From positions 1 through 34,881 of the IMG/VR virus record IMGVR_UViG_3300042458_001409: 34,881 bases of DNA; one strand, written 5' to 3'. This stretch comes from a virus. How positions within the stretch are numbered: position 1 is the first letter of the stretch; every line of letters starts with the position of its first letter. Of this stretch, positions 1,137 to 34,714 are shown piece by piece. The translations under genes and the position numbers were made by a program. The notes beneath the pieces are model-generated. The model was not told the origin of the DNA, made no database searches, and saw nothing but the letters and a program-made list of their open reading frames with translations.

Positions 1137-1580
1137 TTATATTTTTCGTCCTTTAAATGATGATATGATTGACGATTTTACATCAGATTTGTATTTACCC
1201 GTAATTGGTTCTAATTCTCTGATTATTTTTTTTATTGTACCTTTACTTACCTTTAATTCTTGTCCATCAATAGATAAAAAATATTCATTAATAAAATCAA
1301 AATGGTTAAGTATATTTTTCACAATAAATTTATGGTCATCAATATCAAATTTAAACCCAATAAATTTAGCATAATCACCAGTAGGTTTTAGTTCTTCAAT
1401 GTTTTCCGCTTCACCATTTTTAATAGCAGATAGTAATTCATTACCAACTTCATCATCTTCATTTCCTTTACTGAAGTAATCGAAAATACCTTCGGCTTGT
1501 GTTTCGATTTTAGACTCTTTAATAACTCTTTTAACTATTCTCGCTAAATCCGATTCGGATAATCTTACAAGTCTTTTCAT
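1137..1580 (-). CDS. Small protein with amphipathic (L/I)KE leader, candidate internal virion protein
   Basis: This is a 147-residue protein of unknown function. Its first 22 residues (starting MKRLVRLSESDLARIVKRVI, then KE) match the leader of the alpha/beta-hydrolase-like protein at 33928-34692 position by position: basic start, L-[ST]-E-x-D-L, I-[VI]-K-R-V-[IL]-K-E. After that the two proteins have nothing in common. I20-K21-E22 followed by S23 fits the (L/I)-x-E cleavage rule of T4-type prohead proteases, so this could be a capsid-targeting propeptide; that is inference. The rest is a charged soluble alpha/beta chain with no membrane segment and no recognised domain. A TATTTAT element lies 15 nt before the ATG, and a strong terminator follows the stop. 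Confidence 0.75.
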   Translation of the reverse strand: MKRLVRLSESDLARIVKRVIKESKIETQAEGIFDYFSKGNEDDEVGNELLSAIKNGEAENIEELKPTGDYAKFIGFKFDIDDHKFIVKNILNHFDFINEYFLSIDGQELKVSKGTIKKIIRELEPITGKYKSDVKSSIISSFKGRKI

Positions 1581-1595
1581 ATTTTTAATTTATAT

Positions 1596-1602
1596 ATAAA
1601 TA
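1596..1602 (-). promoter_or_regulatory. TATTTAT upstream element, 147-aa leader protein
   Basis: TATTTAT in the sense strand lies 15 nt before the ATG at 1580, inside the longer TATTTATATATAAA. The same 14-mer at the same distance precedes the gene at 33928-34692. It is probably a late promoter or part of an AT-rich initiation region. Confidence 0.4.
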
Positions 1603-1620
1603 TCACCTAATTAAAAAAAG

Positions 1621-2226
1621 TTACCAAATCTTTTCTTGATTCATATAACCAAGAACACAAGTATATGAATCGGACATATCATAACACTCTTTTTTAAGTG
1701 TATTGTTCCGTGTATATAACCAAGTTATTTGTGGTTCTTTATCTGAAACTTTCCTCCAAATTAAATCTTTTTTATCTATGTCTTTTGGTAGTCCACCAAA
1801 CAATACGTGTTTACCTTTATCGTTTGGCATAACTAAATCAGGCCAAGCATATTTTCTTGAGTTGTATGTTGATATGTATGATGGTACGATACCTAAAGTG
1901 TCGTAAATTGACTTCGTAATCATTGAGTTATACCGTAATAAAGTACCTACTGTCCAAACATTGTTTGAGTTTAATAATGGTTCTTCTATTATAACACTAG
2001 TTATTCCAAGATTTTTATAATTAACCAATTTTTCTTCAAACATGGTCACTTTCATCAATAATTCTTGTATTTTATCCTCAACTTTTGGTTTGATAACGGG
2101 TGAGAAATGTGTTAGTTCTAACAATTCTCGTGTTTGAATATCAAATAGGCACCAACCTATAGTTTTTGTTGAAATATCTAACCCTAACACCTTTGGTGAG
2201 TTTTTAAAATCAGTTTTGTTTGCCAT
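1621..2226 (-). CDS. RuvC-like Holliday junction resolvase / RNase H-fold nuclease
   Basis: At 201 residues the size suits a phage RuvC-like resolvase, which would cleave branched DNA before or during packaging. The first strand carries the catalytic Asp, D17, in VLGLDISTKTIGW. The second acidic site is E81/E82 at the end of a hydrophobic strand (SVIIEEPLL). Near the C-terminus D183-x-x-D186 (YDMSDSYTC) matches the closing D-x-x-D pair of RuvC. These four acids in this order are the family signature; overall similarity to bacterial RuvC is low. The ATG at 2226 lies 5 nt after the stop of the 730-residue fibre-like gene, so it is expressed with the late structural genes. That suits resolution of replicated DNA for packaging. 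Another RNase H-fold nuclease remains possible. Confidence 0.75.
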   Translation of the reverse strand: MANKTDFKNSPKVLGLDISTKTIGWCLFDIQTRELLELTHFSPVIKPKVEDKIQELLMKVTMFEEKLVNYKNLGITSVIIEEPLLNSNNVWTVGTLLRYNSMITKSIYDTLGIVPSYISTYNSRKYAWPDLVMPNDKGKHVLFGGLPKDIDKKDLIWRKVSDKEPQITWLYTRNNTLKKECYDMSDSYTCVLGYMNQEKIW

Positions 2227-2231
2227 AAAAA

Positions 2232-4424
2232 TTAAAAATCTAATTTAATAGGATACTGTTGTATTCCCTGTCTTTTTTCGGGTGATTGTATCTTAGAAAT
2301 AACCATAAGTTCTTTATCCGCGTTGTAAAGAGCAACTTCCGTGACGTGTGGCGTCTTAGTTTTACTCCAAGTAGGGTTCGATGAGTCGAAGAACTGTGTT
2401 TGTCCTAAATTACAAAGATAGTTCATAACGTATATTGTTGCTTGAATGTCTGTTTGTATCGTTCCATAAAAATAAAACTCTCCACCAAAATTAAACGTAG
2501 TTCCTGTTTGATTTAATGATGGTAAATTAATGTAATTGTCCAATCTATATGTAGGCGCAGAATTATACATTGTCTCAGTTAATTGTATTGTGGTTGCAGT
2601 TAATCCTGTTGACGTTAAATACCCACCAACTGTCGTTGCCGATAATTGTGAGGAAATATCTATTTCTTTCCATGCAATAGGGTTAGGTCTTGTTGTTCCA
2701 CTACTAACCTTTTGTGCTAATATTTTTATGTTATTTGCACTAAACCCACTTAGTGAGGTCCCCACTTGAGGACTTAAAAATGGAAATTCGTTTCCAAACC
2801 TAACTAATACGTCTGTAGATCCTTGTACCATTGTTTGATCGTAACCACTTATTCTTGAGTAGTAATTACAATGTAACGAATTGGTAAAGGCACTATTGTT
2901 AAATCTATAAGTAACGAAAAGACTTTCACTATTACCCGATAATAATCCGGTTGTTCCACCATCACCACCACATAAGGTGTTTGGTAAAATCAGACCTAAT
3001 TGTGGTGCCGGTAAAGTCCACGACCTATTAGATTTGTTGTTTAGTGTTGCAACAATCTCATCATCATCAAATATAACCATTTTTTGGTCAGGATATACCT
3101 TACCTACTCTATTTGGAATTCCGTTAGTGTTTGCATGTGTATCCCACAAATGGTAATATCTAAGACCAGGTGCGTTAAAGTTTAAATCCCTAGTTGATTC
3201 CATATAATGTGGTTCAAAAAGGTTTAATGAAGTAAATCCTGATGGGTCAACATAGAACTCCTCACCTATGGTCGCATTTTGATTTTTGTGCCACATCAAC
3301 CAAGGAAGGTTGATTTTGAAGTTTCTTGCTTGTCCTGTATTTCCGGGATTTGTCGGATCGTATTCTTGAAAGGCAAATTTTTCACCATAAAAATTATCTA
3401 TCGCCTGATTTGTGTAGTGTACGATTCCAATCGCTTTTTGATCAATAGGATTAACAGTAATCTTATCGGATAGTGAGTTGTAATAATATGTTGAGTCGGT
3501 ATCAGTTTGACCACCATTTAGGTTATATCCAAAATACTCTTTAGATCCTGTATACCCTGTTGACTCATATAAGTTATAATCTTGATTTAAGTTGTTAAAA
3601 ACACCAGCCGGTGATTCGGTCCAAGGTGAATTCATATTCCATATCGCCACGTTACGTTGTGATACGTCACAATTTGTTTCAAAATTAAACACGTCAGTTG
3701 CCCAATATGGTTGTGGTGTGAACGTATCGTATAAATCCGTCATTTTTTGCGGATAAAATAAACAAGACGAATTACCCGTAATACCCATATTACTAAAATC
3801 AGGCACCTGCCTATCGACTTGTATTGTTACCGTCGTTGCTGTTGAGGTGTCTCCGGTTATTCCAACTATCTTATAGGTAAACATAGGTGAGTTACCTGAT
3901 ATTGGTGATATGTTTCCGTTTGTAAATATAGTGATAAAGTCACCCTCACTTACGGTACCAGATACGGTTAAATTAACAGAAGATGAAGACAGCGTTATTG
4001 TAGTTCCTGATGATAAGGTCGTATTATCAATTATAAAGTTAGGATTTAAAGTGTATGCCGAAGAAGTGAATACCGTACTACCAGTAAAGAATCCCCTTGG
4101 TGCCGCACTATTAAAAACATCATCAATATAAGAATCATCATACGGAATACCAAAAGTACTACCAGATGTTGAGTCCACAAAAAGTGGATATTTGATGTTC
4201 ATTCTATTTCTGTCAGGAATCGGTGCCGTATTTTGAGAGTTATACTGAGGACTTAGAACGTTGGACTCAACCAAATTCATTCCATTAACACAGTTATAAC
4301 AAACCTCACTATCTCCAACTTGGAAATACGCGATATCGAATTTACCTTGCGATAACCTTTTTCTTGCAGCATCGGTTAATTGTGTATTAATGAGTGCTGA
4401 GGTATTTTTAATTATGTAAGACAT
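2232..4424 (-). CDS. Putative tail fibre or tail-surface protein, 730 aa
   Basis: This large Gly/Ser/Thr/Asn-rich protein ends the fibre block. The N-terminal region (MSYIIKNTSALINTQLTD, then ARKRLSQGKFDIAYFQVGDSE) resembles the start of phage tail-fibre N-terminal domains in which 'LT..GR..L..G' leads into a strand ending in GD, and probably anchors it to the baseplate or to another fibre. The middle is beta-rich with many TTATTVTI-type strands. The C-terminal part has aromatic segments and ends in a basic stretch (SPEKRQGIQQYPIKLDF). There is no signal peptide, membrane segment or collagen repeat. It is read 20 nt after the 544-residue protein and 5 nt before the resolvase. No enzymatic motif was seen. 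The fibre call comes mostly from composition and context. Confidence 0.6.
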   Translation of the reverse strand: MSYIIKNTSALINTQLTDAARKRLSQGKFDIAYFQVGDSEVCYNCVNGMNLVESNVLSPQYNSQNTAPIPDRNRMNIKYPLFVDSTSGSTFGIPYDDSYIDDVFNSAAPRGFFTGSTVFTSSAYTLNPNFIIDNTTLSSGTTITLSSSSVNLTVSGTVSEGDFITIFTNGNISPISGNSPMFTYKIVGITGDTSTATTVTIQVDRQVPDFSNMGITGNSSCLFYPQKMTDLYDTFTPQPYWATDVFNFETNCDVSQRNVAIWNMNSPWTESPAGVFNNLNQDYNLYESTGYTGSKEYFGYNLNGGQTDTDSTYYYNSLSDKITVNPIDQKAIGIVHYTNQAIDNFYGEKFAFQEYDPTNPGNTGQARNFKINLPWLMWHKNQNATIGEEFYVDPSGFTSLNLFEPHYMESTRDLNFNAPGLRYYHLWDTHANTNGIPNRVGKVYPDQKMVIFDDDEIVATLNNKSNRSWTLPAPQLGLILPNTLCGGDGGTTGLLSGNSESLFVTYRFNNSAFTNSLHCNYYSRISGYDQTMVQGSTDVLVRFGNEFPFLSPQVGTSLSGFSANNIKILAQKVSSGTTRPNPIAWKEIDISSQLSATTVGGYLTSTGLTATTIQLTETMYNSAPTYRLDNYINLPSLNQTGTTFNFGGEFYFYGTIQTDIQATIYVMNYLCNLGQTQFFDSSNPTWSKTKTPHVTEVALYNADKELMVISKIQSPEKRQGIQQYPIKLDF

Positions 4425-4429
4425 ATTTT

Positions 4430-6082: not shown

Positions 6083-6604
6083 TTATCCAAAATCAACTAT
6101 ATTATAGTATATTTTTATTTTCATAGTTCCATCACCTGCAGTTGGGTTAGATACAAGATCGGCCAATCGTAAATTAGAGTTAACTGGCATATAATTCAAT
6201 ATATCCATAGAACTCACCATTATCACATCTGCCGTTCCCTGTATGTCGAACTGTTTGGTAACAGTATTTGATGCATTATCAATAAGAAAAATTGGATTTG
6301 CTGAGTAACTTGATGTTCCGTACACATATTCAAAATATACCTTAAAATCATAATATTTATTAGATCCTGGTGCTGGTAGGATATTAACGGGTAAACTATT
6401 TAAAGTGAGAATTTCAGAATCAGATACCGTAATTTCACTATAATATTGATATCCACCAATAGTTGGTGCAATTTGATTTAACTCTACTTTATATGATGAT
6501 CCAGCCGGATTCTGTGACGGATCTCCCGTATACACAATATGTATAAGGGTTGTTGGTGTAATTGCCGTTGATTGGGCGAATGTTTTATCTGTTAATCTTG
6601 CCAT
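6083..6604 (-). CDS. Short tail fibre with shared N-terminal adapter, 173 aa
   Basis: Residues 8-50 (TFAQSTAITPTTLIHIVYTG, then DPSQNPAGSSYKVEL) are nearly the same as the N-terminus of the 1624-residue long fibre, so both probably dock on the same baseplate or fibre-connector site. The rest (SEILTLNSLPVNILPAPGSN, then strands with TSSYSANPIFL and a GDGTMKIKIYYNI end) follows a phage virion domain pattern in which 'ILTLNSxPVxIxPAPG' leads into a jelly-roll-like fold with a small-residue loop. It may be an alternative short fibre, a capping protein or an assembly competitor of the long fibre. The ATG at 6604 follows the third mini-adhesin by 19 nt, with only a degenerate TATTTAA in front. It ends 3 nt before the SprB-like 544-residue gene. 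Confidence 0.65.
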   Translation of the reverse strand: MARLTDKTFAQSTAITPTTLIHIVYTGDPSQNPAGSSYKVELNQIAPTIGGYQYYSEITVSDSEILTLNSLPVNILPAPGSNKYYDFKVYFEYVYGTSSYSANPIFLIDNASNTVTKQFDIQGTADVIMVSSMDILNYMPVNSNLRLADLVSNPTAGDGTMKIKIYYNIVDFG

Positions 6605-6623: not shown

Positions 6624-6908
6624 TTATTCAAATTGGTATTCTTCTCCGTCTTGGAATTCAAAATATTCCCCGTCTTCAAATTGTTTATATGTTGTCGATG
6701 CAACCTCACAAAAAACACAATTATTATTATCAATAATTTTTACAACATATGTTGGATATGTTTCGTATACTGTGGGTAACGTAAAGGTGTATGGTACCGT
6801 ATTTGTTGTTGCAACATAAACACATGTACCTGAACAACTATTACATATCCATACATCGTATGGTGACGTTCCGCTAGTTATTGAGTTTATTGTTATCTGA
6901 TATGACAT
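6624..6908 (-). CDS. Single-domain SprB-like mini-adhesin, copy 3 (94 aa)
   Basis: This small Cys-containing beta-protein is paralogous to the two at 14728-15015 and 15031-15318. Shared features are an N-terminal strand (ITINSITSGTSPYDVWIC), a C-x-x-C...C-x-[YF]-[VL] core, a middle strand ending in IIDNNNCVF, and an acidic aromatic C-terminus (FEFQDGEEYQFE). The first half reads like one SprB repeat (G-T-x-P-[YF] then D-x-x-G/N-C). It may cap, decorate or lock a fibre, as small phage fibre accessory proteins do. That role is inferred from size, paralogy and location. Confidence 0.65.
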   Translation of the reverse strand: MSYQITINSITSGTSPYDVWICNSCSGTCVYVATTNTVPYTFTLPTVYETYPTYVVKIIDNNNCVFCEVASTTYKQFEDGEYFEFQDGEEYQFE

Positions 6909-6923: not shown

Positions 6924-8534
6924 TTATGTTATTTTTTTACAATTTCCGTTTAATGTACAATATTCTGTTACCATACCATATGTATCTACCCTATAGATTT
7001 TAGTTCCGTATTGTACATAATCAATAGTTACTGGTTTTGTTAAATTAATATCTTTATAAATATAAACTCCCGTTTGCATTATTGTGTTGGCAGATGAAGT
7101 GTAGAATGTGATTGCTGCCCCGAAGTTAGTTAATTGACAGACAGGGCAAGAAACAGAATATTCCCCTTTAGCTTCCCACGTTTTATATGTGGTTCCTGTT
7201 ATTACAGGCGTATTACACTCAACACAAGAATCGTAAACCGTCTGTGCTGATGATGTAAATATATTTGTGTTTGCAATTATAAATCCACTTGGTGGTGCAT
7301 AACCAACAAAATTACCAATATATCGATAACAAGTTCCACCAGTAGTTTTTAGTATATCGTCAACCACCACATTTGATGGTGGGTATGCTACTTGTATTAT
7401 CATACTATTGTTTGTACACGACGTGAACACAAAAGAAGTGTTGACTGGATATGATGTTGGTGTGGGGGTTGCCGTTGGTGTTGGTGTAGGGGTTGGTGTT
7501 GGTGTAGGGGTTGGTGTCGGTAAATTACATCCAGTACAACCTGATATCAACTCTATTATTTCAACCACAACCCTATTTGGTGATCCTCCAACATTTTCGG
7601 TGTATGTAACACACTGTATTTGGTCAGAATTAAAATCACTTAACGTAACAACAAACGTCGTTCCTGTGGTTATTTGTGATCCACTAAATAATAAATTGTC
7701 AGATACGTAATATATATCGGTCGTCTGACAGTCGACTAATTTCTTAACGGTAGGACAAACAAAATAACCCTGATCAACAACAAATGTAACACTTTCTCCC
7801 GTAACAGGTATTCCTGTCGGTGTCGGTGTTGGTGTAGGAGTCGGAGTTGGTGTAGGGGTCGGTGTAACCTCACTGTATGATAAATTAGCACTAAACCCAG
7901 AACAAGGGTCAACCGTAGGGGTTGGTGTGGGTGTAGGTGTAGGTGTTGGAGTTGGCGTAGGGGTCGGAGTTGGGGTTGGTATATCACACTCCAATAAAAT
8001 ATCAAAATCTAAAATAGAACAAGGGTCTGTTGGTGTGGGTGTCGGAGTTGGACAAATACCTGAAGATTGAATGCTTGGAGCAAAATCAGGACATTCACTT
8101 GTCGTTGGGCTTGATCCGTAAAACTCACAAACACCACCTAAAGATGAACTTAAGCACCATTTTGTTGTGTCAAAATAAACGTATCCAGGATTTGTTCCTC
8201 CTGTAAAATATATATGACCATTATAACTACCGTCAATTTGGTATGTTCCGGTTATTGCCGAATACGTACTACCCAATAGTTCGATACATATAGTGTCGTC
8301 ACAACACGAATAACATGACGGATCGGTACACCCTGTAACCACAGTTGCGGTACCAACTAACGATGTTGTTACTATTGTTGGTGTTGTTGCGGTAACAACA
8401 GTATAGCACCCTTCAACTATAACCGTATCTCCGGTCACATTAAAAACAGTACCTAAAGTTTGTAACCCAAGCCAACTCGTTGCACTATATGATATTTGAT
8501 TGTAACAACAACTACTTAATATTATGTCAGCCAT
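6924..8534 (-). CDS. Cys-rich fibre protein with four Thr-Pro linkers, 536 aa
   Basis: The protein alternates small Cys-rich beta domains with four stiff (Thr-Pro)n linkers at about residues 161-169, 185-207, 223-240 and 338-360. The N-terminal domain has CC, C-x-x-C-x-x-CC and other Cys clusters. The C-terminal domain contains SCPVCQL and ends in [11 protein letters not shown]. Such linkers hold binding modules away from a surface, as in extracellular bacterial proteins, and are classic O-glycosylation substrates. The gene follows the GT60-like glycosyltransferase by 57 nt, making it the best candidate for its product's target. The linkers are encoded by in-frame hexanucleotide repeats, so their length can change without a frameshift. 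No enzymatic motif is visible. A fibre or decoration role is inferred from neighbours and architecture. Confidence 0.65.
7456..7523 (-). repeat. In-frame hexanucleotide repeat encoding Thr-Pro linker 4
   Basis: Imperfect tandem copies of a 6-bp unit (plus strand GGTGTN/GGGGTT variants) encode alternating Thr-Pro with one Ala substitution. Confidence 0.85.
7815..7866 (-). repeat. In-frame hexanucleotide repeat encoding Thr-Pro linker 3
   Basis: Tandem 6-bp units with third-position variation encode an uninterrupted Thr-Pro run between two Cys-containing domains. Confidence 0.85.
7914..7980 (-). repeat. In-frame hexanucleotide repeat encoding Thr-Pro linker 2
   Basis: This is among the longest Thr-Pro tracts of the 536-residue protein. 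Wobble positions vary between units, so the tract is not a freshly expanded pure microsatellite. Confidence 0.85.
8028..8051 (-). repeat. Short hexanucleotide repeat encoding Thr-Pro linker 1
   Basis: About four 6-bp units encode the shortest Thr-Pro linker (PTPTPTPTD). Confidence 0.75.
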
Positions 8535-9831: not shown

Positions 9832-12800
9832 TTAAGATTCTAAATTAGTAACCCTTAGTTTTAAATTTGTAATTTCCACTTTTAGATCTTCTATCATTTG
9901 TTGTTGTTCTTTAATAGCTTCAACTAAAACTGAAGTTATTTCAGAATACTTAACAGTTTTATAATCTTTACTACCGCTTAAGATTACCGCCTCAGGTAAA
10001 TAAGTTTCCACTTCTTGTGCAATAAAACCAAATTGTCTTGAACTATCACCTGATTGGAAGTCTTCATTATCTTTCCAATTATAGTAAACTCCACGTAAAT
10101 TATTAACTATATTTAATGCATTTGGTATTTGCTCAACGTTTTGTTTTAATCTTTCATCTGATACTACCACAGCCAAAATACCGGTTGTTGCATCTCTACT
10201 TAATGCCGCTCCCGTGCCAATAACAGTACCAACACTTGTAGTACCGGTTACCTTTAAATTACCTCTAACTAAAACTCCAAATCCACCGTCTACTTCCGTT
10301 CTACCACTGTGAAAAATGGATACTTCATCTGATTTTTGTAATCCACCAAATAATGTCTCACCTGAAGTCACATTATTTAAAATAAAGTGTTGACTACCAG
10401 CAGATCCACCATTGTTAGCAAGCCAAGTACCATATGTCGCATATTGAGTAAACTCTATATTTCTATTTCGACTCGACCCATCGAATATTTTAAGTTGTGC
10501 CGCATTACTAGCAATAATAAATGTCATTCCACTAAGACCTAAAGCAAGGGTAGGGCTATTACTAATGGTAGGTAAGTTAAGAGTAAACCCTGTTGTGAAT
10601 TGTAAATATAAACCCGTATTACTTGGTGATGCTGATGTGTCTGTTCTATATGACACATTAAATGAGTTTGACGCCGATTTATCAACACCCATCGAATATG
10701 TTGGTGTTCCTGCGGATGTAGCAACAAACCTAATATACGGGTCGTTTAAAGTATTGCCCGTGTCACTTATAATTAGATTTGGGTTTGTACTATTTTTTTT
10801 CAGGTCTAAGGTAGTTCCGTCAAAATTAAAAGTACTACCAGTAACAGTTAAGTTACCATTAATTGTTGTCGTTGTTGCCGTTAATGTTTTTAGATTAGTA
10901 CTACCAGTAACTGTTAAATTACCATTAATTGTTAACCCTGTAACCGTATTAAATAAAACCGTGTATGTGCCACCTGTATTATTTCTATGTGTAAAAGTGT
11001 TGTTAGAATAAGTAGCACCTGTTATACGAATATCCGTTGGTAGATTTTGGTATGTTGTAGCGGATATTGTTGTTGCAGTTAACCCTCGTAAAGAAGTATT
11101 ACCTGTAACAGATAACTGACCGTTTACCGTCAAACCCGTAACCGTGTTAAATAAAACGGTGTACGTTCCTCCGGTGTTATTTCTATGTGTGAAAGTGTTG
11201 TTAGAATATGTTGCTCCTGTTATACGGATATCTAATGGTAGGTTTTGATATGTGGTAGCAGAAATTGTATTCGCGGTTAATCCATTTGTAAAATTTGTCG
11301 CCCCATTAACTGTTCCTCCGGTAAAAGTTCCTCCACCTGTTGTACCTGTAACGACATTCCCACTAGAATCCAACCCTAAATTAATTAAAGGTGTTCCAGC
11401 CCCAATTGTACCAATGTTTAATGTTCCTGTAATATTTGTATTACCACTAACTGTTAATTTTTCTGTCGGTGTGTTTGTAGATATACCTACCCTGTTATTT
11501 GTACCATCAACAAAAAATATATTTTGATTATTATCCGTTTCTACTCTAAAATTATTAGGGGTTAAAGAAATAAGGGTTGTATTTACACCATTTGTTGTTG
11601 AACCTGATATTTGATTATTGTTTAATTTCCATTTAGTTACTTCACTACTACCTGAAACGATTATACTAGATATTTGATCATCCTTTTGATTTACACTTGA
11701 ATAGTCTGTATTTGTTGAATTACCAACATAATCATTTATAACACCAAGTTGTCTTGTCGTTCTACTAAAATTATTTAAAGCGGGGTCTCCAACAATTTCA
11801 AACATCACGTTATTACTTACATCAAGTTGAATTGTAGCATAATATCCATCATCATTATTTGTAGCGTTTAATGTTATAAATTCTTTATCTAAACTTATTT
11901 CAGTTGTTTTATCTATATTATCCGTAGCATATTGGTACATCGTCGCACCGGTTTTAAATTGTATTCCGATAGTATTACCGGTATTGATAATACTATCCAT
12001 ATCATTTAAAACGATATCTTCACCTAAAGTTTGATTACCTTCAATTAGAACTTGGTTCAGTGTTGGTACGGATATGTTTAAATATGTTGTAGCACTTATT
12101 GTATTTGCCGTTAACCCGTTAGTGAAGGTTGTTGACCCACTTACAGTCCCCCCACTTAAAGGTAAATAATCCCCACTTACTGATGAGGTAGTACCTGTAG
12201 TGAATCCTGTTACGTTAAAAGTTCCTCCTGTGTTGTTCGTAAATGTTGTTGTACCTGCAGAATACGTTCCACCAGTCACCCTTATGTCTAATGGTAAGTT
12301 TAAATATGTTGTTGCAGATATAGTATTAGATGAAACCAATCCTGTTGACGTTAATCCTGTGACAGTATTGAATAATACATCAAAAGTACCTCCCGTTGAA
12401 TTTGTAAACGTAAAGGTGTTATTGTTGTATGTTGATCCCGTAACTTCAACATCTGTGTATCCAACTAAAAACCCTGAAACATCAAATGTTCCTCCAGTGT
12501 TATTAGTAAACGTACCGACACCTGTTAATGAGTTATACGTTCCTCCTGTTATTGTATTATCTGAAGCTAAAACACCTAAATTATCAGTAAATGTAACACC
12601 ATCGTTTCTTCCTAACGTTAAATTATAATTTAATGTATTGAATGTTAGTCCTGTAACATATGTATCTCCGGTAATTTTTACTCCATTTACAAATAAAGTA
12701 CTAGCGGACATTGTGTTTGCAGTTAACCCATTTGTGAAGTTTGTTGCTCCACTTACGGTCCCACCACTTAAAGGTAAATACTCCCCACTTACTGATGATG

Positions 12801-14706
12801 TTGATCCGGTAGTAAAACCCGTTACGTTAAATGTGCCTCCCGTGTTGTTAGTAAATGTTGTTGTACCTGCAGAATACGTTCCACCAGTCACTCTTATGTC
12901 TAATGGTAAGTTTAAATATGTTGTTGCGGATATTGTTGTTGCGGTTAATCCGCTTTGGAAAATGGTTCCTCCTGTTACTGTCCCACCACTTAATGGTAAA
13001 AAATTACCACTTACGGTTGATGTTGATCCTGTGGTTAATCCGGTTACATTAAAAGTCCCACCGGTGTTGTTAGTGAATGAGATAGTTCCGGCGGAGTATG
13101 TTCCACCTGTAACTCTAATATCTGTTGGTAAATTCTGATATGTTGTTGCTGATATTGTGTTTGCACTTAACCCATTTGTAAAGTTAGTTGTGCCACTTAC
13201 AGTTCCACCAGTAAAGGTACTTGAAGGTAAATTTTGATATGTGGTTGCGGATATTGTTGACGCTGTAACACCATTTAAATTAATATTATTGTCCAAGTTT
13301 AAAACAACTGTTGAGGCTCCAGATATAAAAGAACCGATGTTTGTACCACCTGATATAGTTAAAGTGGCGTTAGGGTTAGGGGCGATAATCGTCGTCGATC
13401 CATCACCTTTAATTGTTGTCCATGCGTTAGTAGGTGGAGACGAGGCTAATCCCTCAACTAATTGTATCATATCAAAATAGTACCTAGCGTTCGGACTATT
13501 AAATGAAACATCTAAAACTTGAACGTTTGTGTTAGTTAAGTAAAATCTCCATAAAGGTATTGATATTAACTGCCAAGAGGACGTATTCGTACTACTATAT
13601 TGAACATACCCCGAAGAACCAGCAGCATTCATATAAACATAATTACCGTTCTGTGTGTTTCCAGTGGTTCTAAAACCCAACCGTATTTGACTTGATGTTG
13701 TGTTTGCTGATAAATTTCTTATCGCAAACTGTAATGTTGCGAATTGGTTTGTGTCTACCGTTGTTGATCCTGTCAATCTGAACGACGTAGTAAATGTTCC
13801 GGTAACCCCACTAACTCTAATAGCTGTTAAACCACTATATGTTTGGTCAGTTGATGATCCACTTATTCTTGTTGGTTGTAAACCAACTGCACCAAATGAC
13901 CATTCAGTTGGTGGCCCCACATTTTCGTTATATAATAATAATAAATCTATATCTGGTGTCGTACCATTTGCAGGTATTGATACAAACGTCACTTCAACTT
14001 GAGTTTCTTCGTCAATATCAGGTTTTTCTGGATTTGCGGACGGAGTACCCCCCACTACCGAAGTATTTCCACTCACATCAGCAACAATAACATCGATTCT
14101 ATTAAAAACAGGATCACCACTACTCAAAACAAGTGTGGTTGGTAGTGGTATGTCGTATATTGTACCACCAATAATGTATTCCAAAGCACTCGTTTCGAAA
14201 GTTAATCCACTAACATACGAGACACCTCCACTTATTAATCGATTACCTTGTACAACTAAAGACCACAAATCTAAATTTTGTTCATTAATTCCGACCTCAA
14301 TAGTGTTAGAAAATAATGTGGTAGTTATCTTTTCTAAAGTGTCTCCCGTGATAGAATTTATTTTTATATCCCTATCAATTACACTATCAAATATTGTAAC
14401 ACCCGTACCAACACTAGTTGCTCCTGTAATTGTCGTTGTGTCACCTGTAGTTAATCCGGTTACATCAAAAGTTCCGCCGCTACTGTTTATAAATGTTATT
14501 GTACCAGCAGAATAGGTTCCTCCTGTAACAAAAGTATCTGACGTACCACTAAATAATCCGGCAAGTTGTCCAAGTTCGGCCTTATATGATGATCCCGCAA
14601 TATTTTGAGATGGGTCACCAGTATAAACAATATGTATGAGTGTCGTCGGCGTTATTGCCGATGATTGGGCTAAAGACCTGTCTGTTAATAATTGATATGT
14701 TGGCAT
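9832..14706 (-). CDS. Long repetitive tail fibre with S74 self-cleaving chaperone end, 1624 aa
   Basis: Residues 12-50 (SLAQSSAITPTTLIHIVYTG, then DPSQNIAGSSYKAEL) form the adapter shared with the 173-residue short fibre. The long middle is made of alternating units of the type TGGTYSAGTITFxNxxGGTF and LTANTISATTYQNLPTDIR, separated by GGTVSGxTNFTNG, as in trimeric beta-helical shafts. The C-terminal 109 residues are an endosialidase-type intramolecular chaperone (Peptidase_S74). They begin at S1516 in SDERLK, the Ser/Lys autocleavage site, continue with YYNWKD and FGFIAQEVETYLPEAV, and end in a coiled coil. In known fibres this domain drives trimerisation and then cleaves itself off just before that Ser. 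The fibre is very rich in Thr, Ser and Asn, a plausible substrate for the next gene. No lyase or sialidase motif was recognised in the shaft, so it is more likely a receptor binder than a depolymerase. Confidence 0.9.
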   Translation of the reverse strand: MPTYQLLTDRSLAQSSAITPTTLIHIVYTGDPSQNIAGSSYKAELGQLAGLFSGTSDTFVTGGTYSAGTITFINSSGGTFDVTGLTTGDTTTITGATSVGTGVTIFDSVIDRDIKINSITGDTLEKITTTLFSNTIEVGINEQNLDLWSLVVQGNRLISGGVSYVSGLTFETSALEYIIGGTIYDIPLPTTLVLSSGDPVFNRIDVIVADVSGNTSVVGGTPSANPEKPDIDEETQVEVTFVSIPANGTTPDIDLLLLYNENVGPPTEWSFGAVGLQPTRISGSSTDQTYSGLTAIRVSGVTGTFTTSFRLTGSTTVDTNQFATLQFAIRNLSANTTSSQIRLGFRTTGNTQNGNYVYMNAAGSSGYVQYSSTNTSSWQLISIPLWRFYLTNTNVQVLDVSFNSPNARYYFDMIQLVEGLASSPPTNAWTTIKGDGSTTIIAPNPNATLTISGGTNIGSFISGASTVVLNLDNNINLNGVTASTISATTYQNLPSSTFTGGTVSGTTNFTNGLSANTISATTYQNLPTDIRVTGGTYSAGTISFTNNTGGTFNVTGLTTGSTSTVSGNFLPLSGGTVTGGTIFQSGLTATTISATTYLNLPLDIRVTGGTYSAGTTTFTNNTGGTFNVTGFTTGSTSSVSGEYLPLSGGTVSGATNFTNGLTANTMSASTLFVNGVKITGDTYVTGLTFNTLNYNLTLGRNDGVTFTDNLGVLASDNTITGGTYNSLTGVGTFTNNTGGTFDVSGFLVGYTDVEVTGSTYNNNTFTFTNSTGGTFDVLFNTVTGLTSTGLVSSNTISATTYLNLPLDIRVTGGTYSAGTTTFTNNTGGTFNVTGFTTGTTSSVSGDYLPLSGGTVSGSTTFTNGLTANTISATTYLNISVPTLNQVLIEGNQTLGEDIVLNDMDSIINTGNTIGIQFKTGATMYQYATDNIDKTTEISLDKEFITLNATNNDDGYYATIQLDVSNNVMFEIVGDPALNNFSRTTRQLGVINDYVGNSTNTDYSSVNQKDDQISSIIVSGSSEVTKWKLNNNQISGSTTNGVNTTLISLTPNNFRVETDNNQNIFFVDGTNNRVGISTNTPTEKLTVSGNTNITGTLNIGTIGAGTPLINLGLDSSGNVVTGTTGGGTFTGGTVNGATNFTNGLTANTISATTYQNLPLDIRITGATYSNNTFTHRNNTGGTYTVLFNTVTGLTVNGQLSVTGNTSLRGLTATTISATTYQNLPTDIRITGATYSNNTFTHRNNTGGTYTVLFNTVTGLTINGNLTVTGSTNLKTLTATTTTINGNLTVTGSTFNFDGTTLDLKKNSTNPNLIISDTGNTLNDPYIRFVATSAGTPTYSMGVDKSASNSFNVSYRTDTSASPSNTGLYLQFTTGFTLNLPTISNSPTLALGLSGMTFIIASNAAQLKIFDGSSRNRNIEFTQYATYGTWLANNGGSAGSQHFILNNVTSGETLFGGLQKSDEVSIFHSGRTEVDGGFGVLVRGNLKVTGTTSVGTVIGTGAALSRDATTGILAVVVSDERLKQNVEQIPNALNIVNNLRGVYYNWKDNEDFQSGDSSRQFGFIAQEVETYLPEAVILSGSKDYKTVKYSEITSVLVEAIKEQQQMIEDLKVEITNLKLRVTNLES
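10921..11270 (-). repeat. Direct repeat pair in the long-fibre gene (about 150 bp each)
   Basis: 10921-11070 and 11121-11270 are near copies. Both encode TYQNLP, then DIRITGATYSNNTFTHRNNT, then GGTYTVLFNTVTGL. Differences are mostly at third codon positions. Confidence 0.8.
12110..13140 (-). repeat. Tandem shaft repeats in the long-fibre gene (about 200 bp units)
   Basis: Units near 12110-12320, 12720-12930 and 12940-13140 are highly alike. Each encodes GGTVSG-x-TNFTNGLTANT or a close form, then ISATTYLNLP, then VTGGTYSAGTTTFTNNTGGT. Stretches of about 60 bp are almost identical (for example 12235-12295 and 12850-12905). Confidence 0.8.
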
Positions 14707-14727: not shown

Positions 14728-15015
14728 TTATTGGAAAATATAACCAAACCCGTCCATAAAATTAAAGTATATATCATTTTGGAACGCCTTTTGACCCGCA
14801 CAATCAATAACTGTCGAGTAAACACATCCATTTGTATCAATAATTCTTAAATAAAGGTAATTTTCGTTTGGAAAATAACTTTCCGTATTAATAACAACCG
14901 TTGCAGGTATGTTTGTTAATCCTGAAACGTAGAAACAACCCGTATTTGTTGGATCACATAAAAAAATGTCGTATGGTTCTAACCCTCCTGTGTCTCCTGT
15001 TATATTAACTATCAT
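14728..15015 (-). CDS. Single-domain SprB-like mini-adhesin, copy 2 (95 aa)
   Basis: This is a paralogue of the proteins at 6624-6908 and 15031-15318. It opens with a strand MIVNITGDTGGLEPYDIFLC, has D-x-x-x-x-G-C-F-Y-V, a central L-x-[IL]-[RK]-[IS]-I-D-[TS]-x-G-C segment (YLRIIDTNGCVYS), a second Cys pair and an aromatic acidic end (YFNFMDGFGYIFQ). The Cys positions suit two disulfides or a metal site in an Ig-like fold. It sits between copy 1 and the long fibre, 21 nt before that fibre's start, so it may be a fibre accessory. Function is unknown beyond that. Confidence 0.65.
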   Translation of the reverse strand: MIVNITGDTGGLEPYDIFLCDPTNTGCFYVSGLTNIPATVVINTESYFPNENYLYLRIIDTNGCVYSTVIDCAGQKAFQNDIYFNFMDGFGYIFQ

Positions 15016-15030: not shown

Positions 15031-15318
15031 TTATTCAAAAACTAAAGTGTCACCATCTTCTGTGGTTAAAGAATCTCCAAGTTCTGTTAAAATTAAGAAA
15101 GTCTCAACGTCACAAGATATTATTTTAAAGAACGTACACCCGCCACTATCAATAGATTTTATCATAATGGTTGTTGCCGTTTGTAATAATGCCGGTAATA
15201 TATAAACACCAGGAGCAATCCCTAAAAATGAACAATTGTTCCCATATTCGTCACAAGCGTAGAAACTAATCGGTGCGGTACCACCTGAAACGCCTGTTAT
15301 GTCTATTGAATATGCCAT
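15031..15318 (-). CDS. Single-domain SprB-like mini-adhesin, copy 1 (95 aa)
   Basis: The frame is open from 15348, but the ATG at 15318 is chosen. It overlaps the adhesin stop in a TAATG, gives the same length as the paralogues, and starts MAYSIDITGVSGGTAPISFY just as they do. Shared features are G-G-T-A-P-[IY]-x-[FVI]-x-x-C near the start, a C-x-F/Y-[LV] strand, MIKSIDSGGCTFF, and an acidic end (ELGDSLTTEDGDTLVFE). The protein reads as one SprB-type repeat plus a conserved tail. Tight coupling to the large adhesin suggests it acts with it, for example as a tip cap or chaperone; this is inference. Confidence 0.65.
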   Translation of the reverse strand: MAYSIDITGVSGGTAPISFYACDEYGNNCSFLGIAPGVYILPALLQTATTIMIKSIDSGGCTFFKIISCDVETFLILTELGDSLTTEDGDTLVFE

Positions 15319-18300
15319 TATACAGGACCACCATCGTTTATTAGCCAACCTTTGGTACCTGTTAGGTACGTTCTTGATGCTGCTGCCGATAGTCCATATT
15401 TAGAAGAACCAAAGTCACAAATAACACCATTTTGTAAAGATGACCCATATGATGCCCATCCGTTTAATAAACTATCATAATTTGTACTGTTTAACCCCGA
15501 TACGTAAACACCTCCATTAGCTAAAAATGCCCCCATGTTGGTAATATCCCTAACATTCCAAGATCCAATATTATTAATATTTGTAAATCCTGTAAATGTG
15601 TTCTCAAATAACAAAGCTAATGAATCATCAGGAGTGCCATCATAAAGTTGTGGACTATCTGTTGTTGCTGACAATGATAGGTTGTGGAATCCAAAGAAAG
15701 AATTTGTATAACCCCCATCAAATTGTAAATCTCCCCACTCATCTATTGATAAAAATTTTAATCTATCATTAGCAATTGGGTTAGCTCCTATACCATTAAA
15801 GGCTCCTCCAGAATTCACTGTAATAGTAATCTGATATATTCCTGGGCCGGTTGTATATGTATGGGTTCTGTTAGCGTAAGATAGTGTTGAGGTTGTCCCA
15901 TCCCCCCAATAAATAGTTCCGTTTGTGATATTAGTTTGTCCGATAACATTAAATGGTAATCTTATAACATTATTTCCGGTTGATGCCGGTAAAAACAAAC
16001 CAGTATATGGATCATATAATGAACCATAAACAATTCTAGTATCCACAGTCGCCCTAAATCCAGGTGTTGGGGTAGGTGTTGGTGTTGGAGTAGGGGTAGG
16101 TGTTGGAGTAGGGGTAGGTGTTGGTGTTGTGTAAATGTATGAGTTTGAGTCGTTACTAATAGTTGATCCACAATTTTTGGTCATTCTAAAATATGTTGTT
16201 CCTGTCGTTGTTGCCGTTGTTGCTATTGTTCTATATGTACTACAACTTGACGTATTACTAGTACTCCATGTTGATCCACTGTCTGTTGAGTATTGTATTG
16301 ATGTTAAAGTACATGAACCACAATTTAAATTGAAGTATATCCCGTAAAGTCCACTTCCAAGGTCGTTTACGTCAACAATAGTTGGTGCACAACACACAAC
16401 GATAGGTGTTGTTGTTGCGCTTCCCGCACAAGTAGAGTCATAATCTATGGTTAATTCTAACTTAAATTCAGAATTACCAATAGGGTCTTGGTCTCCACTA
16501 CAATTAGATTCAATATGTATTGTGTTATTCAATTGGTTGATAGTATAACTACCAACGGCACTTGTTGATGATAGTAAGTATTCTATCGATTGTACCCATA
16601 AGTCGTCTGAAGGAATATCATCAATGTTTGTGATATTTGCAAACGTCTGTGTAAAAGCACTACCGTTTATCGTTATTGTACAGGTTAAATCAGCATTGTC
16701 TATCGTACACCCAGTATATCCTGATGTTGCATCCATAAACCCTTCAAAGAACATCTCGGAAATTCCTCGACGATTTCCCGATGTGGTATTAAAGTTATTC
16801 GAACAAAGGTTGTAAAGTTCGTAACCTTCTATACTATTACCAACACACGTTATATTAAAATAATTGGTGTCAGAACAAGTATTACTATCAGTAACAACCA
16901 AACTATAAGTACCTGCGGTTAATCCTGTTGCCGTCGTTCCTGTTTGCCCGTCAGACCATAAATACATGAATGGTGGTTCTCCTTGATATATCGATGCGGT
17001 TGCATATCCCGGAACACCAAGAAGACAATTAACGGGGTTTATCGCAAAACTAACAAAGTTGGTTGTCGTGATTGAGAAGTCCTCACTAACAACACATCCT
17101 TGAATATCTATAACATTTATTCTATAATTTCCTGGTATTAAACTTGTGAATGTTTCAGCACTTGATGATGTTGATGGTACTACACTATCATTAACTAATG
17201 GTGTATCGAGGTTTTCCAATACGTAAGTAATAAATCCAGTATATCCCGTACCCACCGTCACCGTGACTTCACCGTTCGGTTGTCCACAAGTAGATCCTGA
17301 AGTGGTTGCCGTTATTGTGAATTTTTGTTGTGAGTTTATTGTTGCGGTTGTGGTATAAGCACAAGGTGATCCCGTCCCCGAAATAATTAAATCATAAATA
17401 CCATTAGTTAACCCCGCTTGTTGGAATGTTTGGTTAGTACCAAAATAACTATAGACGGTTCCTCCTGTCTGTGCACTTAACACATAAAGGTAATCTTGAC
17501 TACCCGTTCCGTTTATTGAAACCGATATCTCACCATTGTTTTGACTACATATTGAGTTGGTTATGTTTAAACTAGATAATGAAAACCCATTTTGAGTGTT
17601 GAGTGATCCTGAAACGTTTATTTCACAAAAATTAGCATCTCGTATTAATACGTTGTAATTACCACTTCCTAAATTAGTCAATGTAAACGTGTCAGATAAA
17701 GTGTACCCAACTTGTCCCGTATTAGCAGAATAGAAAAACGGTGCGGTTCCACCTGAAACAGTATATGTTAAACTACCATCAGACGCAAAACAACTCGGAC
17801 TAACACTACTTGTCCCTAATATTCCTAAAGGTAATGCTTGTCCTATGGTTTCTGAAACTGTGGTTGAGCAACCAATACTATCGGTTACTGTACAACTATA
17901 TGTTCCTTGAGTTAATCCCGTAACTAATTGTGTTGTATCTCCGTTACTCCATAAGTACGTGAATGGTCCGGTTCCTGTTAATCCTGTTACGGCGAGTTTA
18001 CCCGTGTTGATCACACATGTCGATGTGTTCACTTTCCATAAACCAAAGTTAACACTTGTTGAACTATATATTAAAATGTTCGGTGTATTTGCACTTACCG
18101 CTCCGTAATCAAACACAGTCGCATAGTACTCACCGGCACCTAAACTAGGAAAAATGTAAGGTAATGTTATTGTTTGTTGGACATCATATAACACATCGTC
18201 TTTATAAAGAATAATATTATATGGACTATTGGTTGATGTTGCACTAACAGATACAAATCCATTATCCAACCCACATGTTGTTGTTGTATCTGTTATATTA

Positions 18301-18734
18301 GCAATAAAACATTCAGAAACAAATACGTTTATAAACGCCTCGTTGTTTTGTAACCCTAAAAAATCGTTAAGTCTAAAAACATAAGTACCCCCCGTTAAAC
18401 CTGTATAAGTGAAAGGCCCGTTACTGGTCTGAGCACTTATAGTCCCTGGTATGATATTATCTATCGTATATGGTAAAACACCACCAAACGGTGTAATTAC
18501 TGTGGTACCCGAAGAAGAATCACAAACACCTGTTACGGTGAAAGTGTATGTTAAAATTCCTGTATTACAATTTTGTGTACAGGTTTGTCCTGTCGCAATG
18601 TAAACGCCAGACGCACTACCAGAGTACGTATCATCAATACAAATACCCACACCTAATGAAACTCCCGCCTGTAAATTACCACAACAATCTACATAACTAT
18701 ATACCCCATTTGTTAATCCTGAAACACATGCCAT
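15318..18734 (-). CDS. Large modular adhesin/tail fibre: SprB repeats, Thr-Pro linker, PKD, BspA-like LRR (1138 aa)
   Basis: Domains in order: a Cys-rich N-terminus (residues 1-60, YVDCCGNLQ, CTQNCNTG); a run of SprB-type repeats to about residue 640 (clear units TGTGPFTYLWSNGDTTQLVT, then GLTQGTYSCTVTDSIGCS; and GGTAPFFYSANTG, then LGSGNYNVLIRDANFC); a Cys-containing domain starting EGYELYNLCSNNF; a Thr-Pro linker at about 868-891; a PKD-like domain with YWGDGTTS and HTYTTGPGIYQITI (about 930-965); and a C-terminal BspA-like leucine-rich domain (NNIGSWNVRDITNMGAFL, LNSTNYDSLLNGWASYG, YGLSAAASRTYL, GWLINDGG). These are cell-surface adhesion modules of flavobacteria, here without signal peptide or type IX sorting domain, so assembly onto the virion is expected. 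The BspA-like end, set off by the linker, is the likely receptor-binding tip. It starts 9 nt after the 991-residue baseplate gene. Confidence 0.78.
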   Translation of the reverse strand: MACVSGLTNGVYSYVDCCGNLQAGVSLGVGICIDDTYSGSASGVYIATGQTCTQNCNTGILTYTFTVTGVCDSSSGTTVITPFGGVLPYTIDNIIPGTISAQTSNGPFTYTGLTGGTYVFRLNDFLGLQNNEAFINVFVSECFIANITDTTTTCGLDNGFVSVSATSTNSPYNIILYKDDVLYDVQQTITLPYIFPSLGAGEYYATVFDYGAVSANTPNILIYSSTSVNFGLWKVNTSTCVINTGKLAVTGLTGTGPFTYLWSNGDTTQLVTGLTQGTYSCTVTDSIGCSTTVSETIGQALPLGILGTSSVSPSCFASDGSLTYTVSGGTAPFFYSANTGQVGYTLSDTFTLTNLGSGNYNVLIRDANFCEINVSGSLNTQNGFSLSSLNITNSICSQNNGEISVSINGTGSQDYLYVLSAQTGGTVYSYFGTNQTFQQAGLTNGIYDLIISGTGSPCAYTTTATINSQQKFTITATTSGSTCGQPNGEVTVTVGTGYTGFITYVLENLDTPLVNDSVVPSTSSSAETFTSLIPGNYRINVIDIQGCVVSEDFSITTTNFVSFAINPVNCLLGVPGYATASIYQGEPPFMYLWSDGQTGTTATGLTAGTYSLVVTDSNTCSDTNYFNITCVGNSIEGYELYNLCSNNFNTTSGNRRGISEMFFEGFMDATSGYTGCTIDNADLTCTITINGSAFTQTFANITNIDDIPSDDLWVQSIEYLLSSTSAVGSYTINQLNNTIHIESNCSGDQDPIGNSEFKLELTIDYDSTCAGSATTTPIVVCCAPTIVDVNDLGSGLYGIYFNLNCGSCTLTSIQYSTDSGSTWSTSNTSSCSTYRTIATTATTTGTTYFRMTKNCGSTISNDSNSYIYTTPTPTPTPTPTPTPTPTPTPTPGFRATVDTRIVYGSLYDPYTGLFLPASTGNNVIRLPFNVIGQTNITNGTIYWGDGTTSTLSYANRTHTYTTGPGIYQITITVNSGGAFNGIGANPIANDRLKFLSIDEWGDLQFDGGYTNSFFGFHNLSLSATTDSPQLYDGTPDDSLALLFENTFTGFTNINNIGSWNVRDITNMGAFLANGGVYVSGLNSTNYDSLLNGWASYGSSLQNGVICDFGSSKYGLSAAASRTYLTGTKGWLINDGGPV
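16062..16129 (-). repeat. In-frame hexanucleotide repeat encoding the adhesin Thr-Pro linker
   Basis: Tandem 6-bp units encode alternating Thr-Pro just before the PKD domain. They match the linker repeats at 7456-8051 in type and codon pattern. Confidence 0.85.
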
Positions 18735-31508: not shown

Positions 31509-31522
31509 CTTTTCTTTTAAAA

Positions 31523-31529: not shown

Positions 31530-31580
31530 GTTATGTATGTATTTTTAAAGGTAGGTTAGATAAAAACAAAATAAACATTC

Positions 31581-33422: not shown

Positions 33423-33423
33423 T

Positions 33424-33888
33424 TTATAAATTAATTATAACGAACTCTCGACTTCCAAAAGCCTTAGCTTCGTCAGTGTAGTCTATTTTAAGTTTAGCGG
33501 TGTATTCACCAGTGTTTTGTCCGGGTATTCTATATATACTAGCCTGACCTAAAAGTTCATAATTTAAATCACCGGGAGCCTCATCGCTTTCTAAATATGG
33601 TTCAATGGTGATATTATTTATAGTTAGGTTAGGTATGTATTTTGCAACCTGTTGCTCAATGTCGGATCTAATACTATCGAACGTCTCACCATCTAATGGT
33701 TCAAAAATAAATTCATAGATTCTTGTACCAAAATCAGGTAAATAATATCTAGTCCCTTTTTTTGTTAATATTAAATGTAATAGGTTACTTCTTATCTCTT
33801 CTGAAGATTCTTCAGAAATAGACAAATAAAAACCTTTTTCACTTTGTCTAAAGGGAAAATTTATACCATAAGTAATTCCGTCTGCCAT
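33424..33888 (-). CDS. Baseplate wedge protein, gp25/gpW-like
   Basis: At 154 residues it fits the GPW_gp25 family. Landmarks are an early strand (MADGITYGINFPFRQSEKGF), helix EEIRSNLLHLILTKKGTRYY, then LPDFGTRIYEFIFEPLDGET. That last segment corresponds to the 'G-x-R-...-F-G-x-x-l-...f-e' core that contacts the sheath and inner baseplate. The following helix (FDSIRSDIEQQVAKYIPNL) and the terminal strands are also as expected. It links the sheath initiator ring to the wedge in contractile phages. It is translated directly before the gp6-like protein. Older annotations call this family lysozyme-like, but no lysozyme active site is claimed here. Confidence 0.9.
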   Translation of the reverse strand: MADGITYGINFPFRQSEKGFYLSISEESSEEIRSNLLHLILTKKGTRYYLPDFGTRIYEFIFEPLDGETFDSIRSDIEQQVAKYIPNLTINNITIEPYLESDEAPGDLNYELLGQASIYRIPGQNTGEYTAKLKIDYTDEAKAFGSREFVIINL

Positions 33889-33893
33889 ATAAA

Positions 33894-33900
33894 ATAAATA
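33894..33900 (-). promoter_or_regulatory. TATTTAT upstream element, gp25-like gene
   Basis: Sense-strand TATTTAT lies 5 nt before the ATG at 33888, ahead of the baseplate block. Confidence 0.35.
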
Positions 33901-33927
33901 TAGAGGAAGTCAATTTTGAATAAAGAG

Positions 33928-34692
33928 TTACATTGAACTAGAATATTTTTGAAAAAATATTTTTGGCATTTCTAAATGGTTATAATATGATGCTTCAATT
34001 CTTTTTGATAATCCGCTTTTTTCCATTTGTTTAAGATAAGCTCTATACGACGGACAACAACCCCAATTTTCCCATCTAGATATCATTTTAGCGTTGTTAG
34101 GTAAACTTTTATATAGTGTTGGTGTTGATGGGTCAATTAACCCCACAAAGTCATATCCACCTTTAAGTTCTCCCCACACATTGATTCCTCCTCTTGAGAA
34201 TCCACTAACAGATTTAATTCTAAAATCTTTAACACCATTATTTTTAAGGATACCTTTTAATGTGCTAAGAGAATTTTCGTAATTACTATATATAACATTT
34301 TTATTAGTAAAAAGTCCCTTACCTTCTTTTTTCATAAATTTAGCTCCGTATTGTGAACTTGGCATCCCTCCCCATATTACTGTAATATCTTTTGAGTTGG
34401 GGTTATTCATGTCTAATATATATGATCCTCCACTTACTGTTTGTGGTTTTTTTGCTGTTATTGTAAACTCAGGTAAGTCTTTATTGATTACGTCAGTACT
34501 TTTATCGTATGTTGATTTACTGGTATTAATTGGACCGTCTTTTTTTTGTTGTACACTTTTAGTTAGTTGGTCAGCGATTTTCTTAGCGGCTTCAGACCCT
34601 AACCTCCCTATTTCTTCAAAAGGACCTTCTTTTAAGACTCTTTTAATAATTGTTGTTAAATCATCCTCTGTGAGTTTAATAATTTTTCTCAT
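33928..34692 (-). CDS. Alpha/beta-hydrolase-like protein with (L/I)KE leader, candidate injected enzyme
   Basis: A 254-residue protein. Residues 1-22 (MRKIIKLTEDDLTTIIKRVL then KE) match the leader of the protein at 1137-1580. A linker of low complexity follows (about 40-95). The rest looks like an alpha/beta-hydrolase core: strand DITVIWGGMPS (102-112) with a possible oxyanion GG; nucleophile elbow SVSGFSRGG with S166 in G-x-S-x-G; strand GLIDPSTP with D187 where the acid is usual; and H239 in YYNHLEM as the likely catalytic His. All three triad residues are in the right order. The core is short for the fold. L20-K21-E22 followed by G23 fits T4-type prohead protease cleavage. It precedes the gp25-like gene and follows a terminator, so it may begin the late transcript. 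The substrate is unknown; an esterase, peptidase or acyl hydrolase that acts on the host after injection is one reading. Confidence 0.65.
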   Translation of the reverse strand: MRKIIKLTEDDLTTIIKRVLKEGPFEEIGRLGSEAAKKIADQLTKSVQQKKDGPINTSKSTYDKSTDVINKDLPEFTITAKKPQTVSGGSYILDMNNPNSKDITVIWGGMPSSQYGAKFMKKEGKGLFTNKNVIYSNYENSLSTLKGILKNNGVKDFRIKSVSGFSRGGINVWGELKGGYDFVGLIDPSTPTLYKSLPNNAKMISRWENWGCCPSYRAYLKQMEKSGLSKRIEASYYNHLEMPKIFFQKYSSSM

Positions 34693-34707
34693 TATAATAT
34701 TTTATAT

Positions 34708-34714
34708 ATAAATA
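34708..34714 (-). promoter_or_regulatory. TATTTAT upstream element, hydrolase-like gene
   Basis: Sense-strand TATTTAT, inside TATTTATATATAAA, lies 15 nt before the ATG at 34692 and directly after a terminator, so a promoter here would start the late block. Confidence 0.45.

Follow-up and report, generated by a model that had tools for sequence, protein, structure and literature searches.

Two window genes with a common leader

The DNA considered here, a viral stretch of 34,881 bases deposited as IMG/VR record IMGVR_UViG_3300042458_001409 and hereafter called the window, contains two genes whose products start with similar 22-residue peptides, or leaders, followed by different cargo proteins. 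The window sits in reverse orientation within a 109-kb contig, G008, at positions 8400-43280 and with 99.997% identity. Using Pfam and PHROG profile searches, we found genes for T4-type baseplate proteins (gp25-like and gp6-like), a primase and a RuvC-like protein in the window. The two open reading frames (ORFs) and their leaders had been pointed out in an earlier reading of this DNA, the original prediction, and both are present where it had placed them (Table 1).

Table 1. Coordinates of the leader genes and associated features in the window (the arrow marks the predicted cut; PSSM, position-specific scoring matrix score; aa, amino acids; nt, nucleotides)
Feature	Position	Strand	Remarks
Leader protein 1	1137..1580	-	147 aa: 22-residue leader and 125-residue cargo, fold not assigned
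Leader 1, MKRLVRLSESDLARIVKRVIKE	1515..1580	-	Predicted cut after Glu22 (VIKE↓S); PSSM 58.6
TATTTATATATAAA, promoter-like element, gene 1	1589..1602	-	First T 22 nt before A of ATG
Leader protein 2	33928..34692	-	254 aa: leader, ~60-residue linker, alpha/beta-hydrolase-like cargo
Leader 2, MRKIIKLTEDDLTTIIKRVLKE	34627..34692	-	Predicted cut after Glu22 (VLKE↓G); PSSM 46.8
Ser166 codon in GFSRGG, putative nucleophile, cargo 2	34195..34197	-	Conserved in homologue L300
Asp187 codon, putative partner of Ser166, cargo 2	34132..34134	-	Role from low-confidence model
His239 codon, putative partner of Ser166, cargo 2	33976..33978	-	Role from low-confidence model
TATTTATATATAAA, promoter-like element, gene 2	34701..34714	-	First T 22 nt before A of ATG

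The two leaders agree at 11 of their 22 residues; at the DNA level 43 of 66 nucleotides match, and 5 of the 11 shared residues are encoded by different codons. Their BLOSUM62 score of 63 is the highest among the 946 ungapped N-terminal pairs formed by the window's 44 ORFs of at least 60 residues, and none of 200,000 shuffles of one leader matched it (maximum 44). Besides the site at Glu22, each leader holds another L-x-E at residues 7-9. The mature parts of the two proteins are unrelated, as had been predicted, the best BLASTP match between them having an E value of 16. For leader protein 1, searches gave no Pfam match at E≤0.1 and no PHROG match better than 0.016.

Both genes were also said to have the same upstream motif at the same distance from the start codon, and this observation holds: the exact 14-mer occurs exactly twice in the window, and the 7-mer TATTTAT ends 15 nt before the ATG in each case. 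When up to three mismatches are allowed, the window holds 55 matches to the 14-mer against an expectation of 41.6, which is no significant enrichment. In four related contigs, 208 of the 794 non-leader ORFs of at least 100 residues, terminase, portal, protease and tail genes among them, have TATTTAT in the 60 nt preceding them, as do 94 of 122 leader representatives, compared with 7.6% of shuffled leader upstream sequences. Given that it is frequent upstream of leader and non-leader genes alike, TATTTAT is best read as a general promoter-like element. In contigs G001, G003, G005 and G008 its first T favours two distances from the ATG, 11-13 and 20-24 nt, which are about one helical turn apart; if TATTTAT is a -10 element, transcripts of the short-distance class would have almost no 5' untranslated RNA.

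The leader family

The genome-wide search for the leader proposed in the original prediction yielded 10 leader ORFs in G008, both window genes included, and a large family beyond that contig. A degenerate DNA pattern for the leader occurs in at least 120 stretches of viral contigs and in four stretches from 84,980 bacterial and archaeal species genomes. Two of these four come from a single contig filed under Prochlorococcus, one lies in a Prevotellaceae metagenome-assembled genome (MAG), and one overlaps a 2027-residue ORF for which no leader gene is listed. The Prochlorococcus-filed contig (QCKH01000009.1, 64 kb) carries two leader genes together with other short-leader genes recognized by eye, and is probably a phage contig. 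Defined by a leader PSSM score above 35, the family, referred to here as family A, comprises 176 proteins whose bodies form 125 BLAST cargo clusters; two pairs among the 176 have identical first 50 residues, so that up to two proteins may be counted twice, and a G001 leader pair with 100% identity is a single gene seen in two overlapping stretches. The best score of the same matrix on 96,380 shuffled ORF starts was -1.0, far below the threshold. Searches of 50,697 named phages by tblastn with 22-residue and 50-residue leader queries gave no match, although such searches are insensitive since the queries are short.

When each cargo cluster is represented once, no variation is seen at M1, L7 or E9, and 124 of the 125 representatives have Glu22. 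At position 20, 117 of them have I or L, 7 have V and 1 has M. The family-A leader has two (L/I)-x-E sites, L7-T-E9 and I20-x-E22. Information amounts to roughly 3-4 bits per column at most positions of the leader. Residue 22 has 4.15 bits, after which the value drops sharply: residue 23 has 1.35, residue 24 has 0.7 and residue 29 about 0.2. The DNA pattern fixes most of residues 7-19 in many family members and leaves residues 20-22 free; of 179 ORFs chosen on residues 2-19 alone, 176 have Glu22 and 163 have I or L two positions before it. Between the leaders of cluster representatives, which carry unrelated cargos, synonymous differences (pS, 0.586) exceed nonsynonymous ones (pN, 0.184) about threefold, and codons vary even at the invariant residues. 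Thus, selection on the leader acts on the protein and not on the DNA.

A pattern for a diverged leader occurs in 72 stretches of viral contigs and defines a second group of phages, which are presumably from the rumen, judging by sample-number ranges and the Prevotellaceae link. A looser pattern gave 94 second-group ORFs, some of them with alternative starts, and a stricter one gave 73, belonging to 53 cargo clusters. This pattern leaves the last three leader residues free; among the 73, the boundary column nonetheless holds Glu in 70, an (L/I)-x-E site is present in 68, and one residue further on, conservation has dropped from 4.0 to 0.9 bits.

We also conducted a blind scan in which, genome by genome, proteins were grouped when they are alike in their first 34 residues but not in their bodies. 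With T4 as a control, 6 of 223 genes fell into clusters of at least three; one of the two three-member clusters contains two proteins starting with MKTYQEFIAE and one starting with MKTFKEF, which are the known internal proteins, and the other has a different common start. None of 101 crAss001 genes clustered, and Peptidase_S77, the family of the prohead protease, was not found in that phage either. The genes in leader-like clusters number 30 of 265 in G001, 48 of 354 in G003, 45 of 249 in G005 and 9 of 129 in G008. They represent 25 body groups in G001, 26 and 12 in the two clusters of G003, 45 in G005 and 8 in G008; where body groups are fewer than genes, some leader proteins are paralogues. 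Clusters of at least three in other phages contain 45 of 443 genes in LR756508, 12 of 200 in immuto (five being signal peptides) and 3 of 230 in Mel-JY01. Clusters of this size that are not leader-like comprise two low-complexity ones and one of tail type in G001, and signal peptides in G003 and immuto. Of the 132 leader-like proteins, a set that omits the non-leader clusters and spans several leader types, 128 have an (L/I)-x-E site near the N-terminus. Such a site is present in 135 of all 150 clustered proteins, which include the non-leader clusters and one more leader-like G003 cluster of three, as compared with 296 of 847 other genes, and neither (L/I)-x-D, (L/I)-x-N nor (L/I)-x-S is enriched in the clustered proteins.

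Seven leader types besides A were defined by eye and by regular expression, one of them with two members, and a given cargo may be joined to more than one type. For the RYMFFSNL cargo, three contigs have leader A and two have leader B, and further exchanges on the same cargo involve A/D, A/E, B/C, C/D and E/H; leaderless homologues are found too. The clusters underlying these comparisons are single-linkage, and the larger mixed ones may be chained via shared domains.

Head genes and the probable role of the leader

According to an excerpt of PMC9026906, T4 internal proteins have leaders of 10-19 residues that bind the prohead core and that the protease gp21 removes after L/I-x-E; processing of IPIII depends on the cut-site residue and on the one two positions before it, and cleavage is prevented when the cut-site residue is Asp. 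We examined 19 large contigs for head genes, 14 picked by the leader pattern and 5 by gp6, many of which are fragments. Peptidase_S77 is present in 12 of the 19 and Gp23 in 13. The G001 protease, encoded at 66499-67218 on the plus strand, matches the T4 gp21 structure 5JBL at 8.5e-18, and NHP and SSRG motifs are present in all 12 S77 proteases, the 5JBL construct itself having Ala at the His position. The relatives' capsid protein matches gp23 at 1.7e-23, and its pro-region ends in [HF]LINE↓[AS] in all 12 aligned proteins. The gp21 rule thus suits this capsid protein, which by analogy with T4 would be cleaved there. Likewise, all contigs of 126 kb or more found with the diverged-leader pattern, 16 in number and up to 413 kb long, were examined: S77 scores over the cut-off in 12 of them, and Gp23 matches in 13, one match being short and weak. 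The capsid site of this second group is HLIYE↓A in the nine proteins read (12 loci examined). Genes close to the G001 capsid gene encode proteins with short N-terminal relatives of the leader (MSKLDTQIKKVLKE and MKNLNNIIKKVLKE).

Since the invariants of the leader fit the T4 gp21 rule, we assign a probability of about 0.78 to the reading that the leaders are capsid-targeting propeptides that gp21 removes, as in T4. The 22-residue leader would dock its protein onto the prohead core in late infection; a gp21-type protease would then cleave it after Glu22, perhaps with a further cut following Glu9, and so release the cargo within the head. The cargo would be packaged together with the DNA and would presumably enter the host with it.

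Several observations weigh against this reading. Neither gp21 nor gp23 was found in the window or in G008, which is a linear record and perhaps a fragment. Neither was found in G005. The distance between gp23 and gp6 is about 76 kb in G019, and if gene order is kept, the head genes of G008 and G005 would be expected past the ends of these contigs. Family-A leaders were not found in G017, G018 or G019 and number three in G016, which suggests that leader genes gather in particular, probably accessory, regions. Most leaders have Q, S, N, E or D directly past the predicted cut, and A stands there in only 2 of 125; in the capsid protein, by contrast, A or S follows the site. The homologue of cargo 2 designated L300 keeps LTE (residues 6-8) and has no I-x-E near residue 22, and the cell-wall hydrolases among the leader-type cargos are odd for head contents. 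In the clustered proteins, (L/I)-x-K and (L/I)-x-x-E are also enriched, though less strongly than (L/I)-x-E, and the Fisher p values for the latter are inflated because cluster members are related. Near N-termini in general, (L/I)-x-E is enriched 1.34-fold without family A; as this is modest, we give weight to the clustered proteins and to the point at which conservation ends. Lastly, 13 of 201 genomes belonging to the same family as the Prevotellaceae MAG encode a related N-terminus, MNKKLIRLTESDLHRIVKESVNRILxE; a search with the leader of the MAG itself recovered 4 of the 201. S77 was detected in 0 of the 13 genomes; the control was also silent in that search, so that the absence of S77 from those genomes is not established. 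The bacterial matches may be phage sequence in draft genomes. In the MAG itself (RUG12065), a leader-bearing 203-residue protein is encoded beside birA-like and pyrH-like genes, named by eye, and these neighbours suggest that the gene is possibly a chromosomal relic.

The leader could instead be a packaging or scaffold-docking tag that is never cut and that targets the head or another part of the virion. Such a tag would suit L300, with no second site, and the helix predicted for leader residues 9-22 in the one model, at low confidence; about 80% of SPN3US head proteins, moreover, are uncleaved according to an excerpt of PMC10052503. We nevertheless consider it improbable, as conservation stops just past Glu22, this residue together with I or L at position 20 is what gp21 requires, and (L/I)-x-E recurs near the N-terminus across the leader-like proteins and at the end of the second-group leader. 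Equally doubtful is a sorting or complex-forming N-terminus unrelated to virions, serving, for example, a phage compartment or a host complex. The cargos are mostly small proteins without assigned function, some contigs around tail genes have no leader genes, and a related leader occurs in bacterial genomes where S77 went undetected, all of which it would accommodate; however, the leader is found in phages with gp21 and gp23 from two groups, some short-leader proteins are encoded next to the capsid gene, and the blind scan recovers T4 internal proteins as the same kind of pattern.

There is very little chance that the leader is part of a mobile 5' DNA cassette, made up of a promoter and first codons, which spread by recombination and whose peptide has no function. 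Both window copies do have the 14-nt motif at equal distance, and some within-contig leader pairs in G008 and G003 are 97% identical in DNA (64/66), but the motif is general, its spacing is variable, and many synonymous differences combined with a constant protein are the opposite of what a cassette predicts. Thus, the duplicated DNA cassette of motif and leader must be dropped from the original prediction. Its other part, a gp21-type propeptide ending in (L/I)-x-E, is strongly supported at the sequence level by the near-invariant Glu22, the gp21 and gp23 of relatives, the capsid site, the T4 control, leader swapping and the second group.

We lean, with less confidence, toward a broader proposal, namely that uncultured giant phages, probably of lakes and the rumen, load 30-50 accessory proteins per head by means of interchangeable, removable leaders, the proteins forming a modular injected payload much larger than that of T4 and the leader types being swapped between cargos. 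The proteins that are injected with phage DNA are hard to determine, and for uncultured phages they are known in very few cases. Should the leader mark head cargo, a list of injected proteins could be drawn up from sequence alone, giving more than 100 cargo clusters, most of them without a Pfam match. The cargo set would then likely include host-takeover and counter-defence proteins, the type to which T4 IPI belongs (PMC3012670, in excerpt), and the leaders would provide new protein-loading tags for engineered capsids.

Cargos, other window features and known systems

At an E value of 1e-3, Pfam recognizes 8 families among the 125 family-A representatives, with one or two members each, including peptidoglycan binding, LysM, PIN and sigma-70 region 4 (Sigma70_r4, in one of the 125), and 18 families among 79 proteins of other leader types, including M23, VanY and cell-wall hydrolases. 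One G008 leader protein (L238:15835-16275) has a body that by eye resembles the sigma-70 region 4 helix-turn-helix. Cargo 2 is probably an alpha/beta hydrolase: its GFSRGG motif, Asp and His are conserved in the 57%-identical L300, and its model, with a predicted local distance difference test (pLDDT) score of 52.6, gives Foldseek matches to esterases at 7.6e-4 with a template modeling (TM) score of about 0.4. A tblastn search with cargo 2 in the 50,697 named phages gave no match.

Elsewhere in the window, the products of 6083-6604 and 9832-14706 have a common N-terminal segment, LTDxxxAQSxAITPTTLIHIVYTGDPSQ, on differing, apparently tail, proteins. A short protein type with a PxDxxxC-like start in common is encoded at 6624-6908, 14728-15015 and 15031-15348, apparently also for the tail, and two large structural-type proteins (6924-8534 and 15318-18734) contain long Thr-Pro repeat tracts.

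This kind of system is known; the leader families, their number and their exchange are, as far as our searches show, not described in the literature searched, where we found no description of these leaders or of LTESDL. The phages phiKZ, 201phi2-1 and SPN3US are likewise large, and many of their head proteins are cut after a short motif ending in Glu. In SPN3US, however, the motif is A-x-E, most N-terminal propeptides exceed 100 residues and there are 9 substrates; phiKZ and 201phi2-1 have at least 19, and the excerpts of these sources describe no single leader on so many cargos.

The top-ranked named relatives of the capsid protein are those of the uncultured 484-kb phage LR756508.1 and of Flavobacterium phage immuto, both of which have S77. 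Each has N-terminal families of its own on unrelated proteins, a cluster of 48 in LR756508 (first 381 kb) and, signal peptides apart, clusters of 5 and 4 in immuto. These leaders differ from family A, with best PSSM scores of -27.3 and -31.1, respectively, and an hhalign comparison of the family-A and LR756508 leaders (probability 77% local, 5% global) makes the latter at best a distant relative. No virion proteome of immuto was seen among the literature matches listed. In LR756508.1, 16 aligned proteins, apparently paralogues, start with MKLKxLLxE, with L7 and E9 invariant, and have a conserved LYRGT...E; 13 of the 16 match phrog_11975. An assignment of these paralogues as ADP-ribosyltransferases, considered on the basis of a YRGT...E pattern, proved unsupported, as the best PDB profile matches were designed proteins along with further helical or coiled-coil chains and Pfam gave no support.

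A gene for bS21 (PF01165, 2e-10) lies on the minus strand of G001 at 65756-65941, between portal and protease, which resembles its context in the freshwater Bacteroidetes phages with bS21 described in PMC9723584 and links the present group to them; the excerpt of that paper does not mention leaders. The hosts of the present group probably belong to the Bacteroidota.

The closest parallel is with IPI, IPII, IPIII and Alt of T4, where a short N-terminal peptide ending in (L/I)-x-E is likewise found on unrelated proteins of a phage with gp21 and gp23 (PMC9026906 and PMC3012670, both in excerpt), and where, as in the relatives, the capsid protein bears the same kind of cut site. The family-A leader has no sequence match to a T4 leader (the best T4 ORF has a PSSM score of -25.3, and an MKTYQEFIAE protein -70.4). 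It also differs in length, with 22 residues, or about 25-27 in the second group, versus 10-19 in T4. Finally, in place of the handful of such proteins in T4, three contigs have 30, 48 and 45, with several exchangeable leader types.

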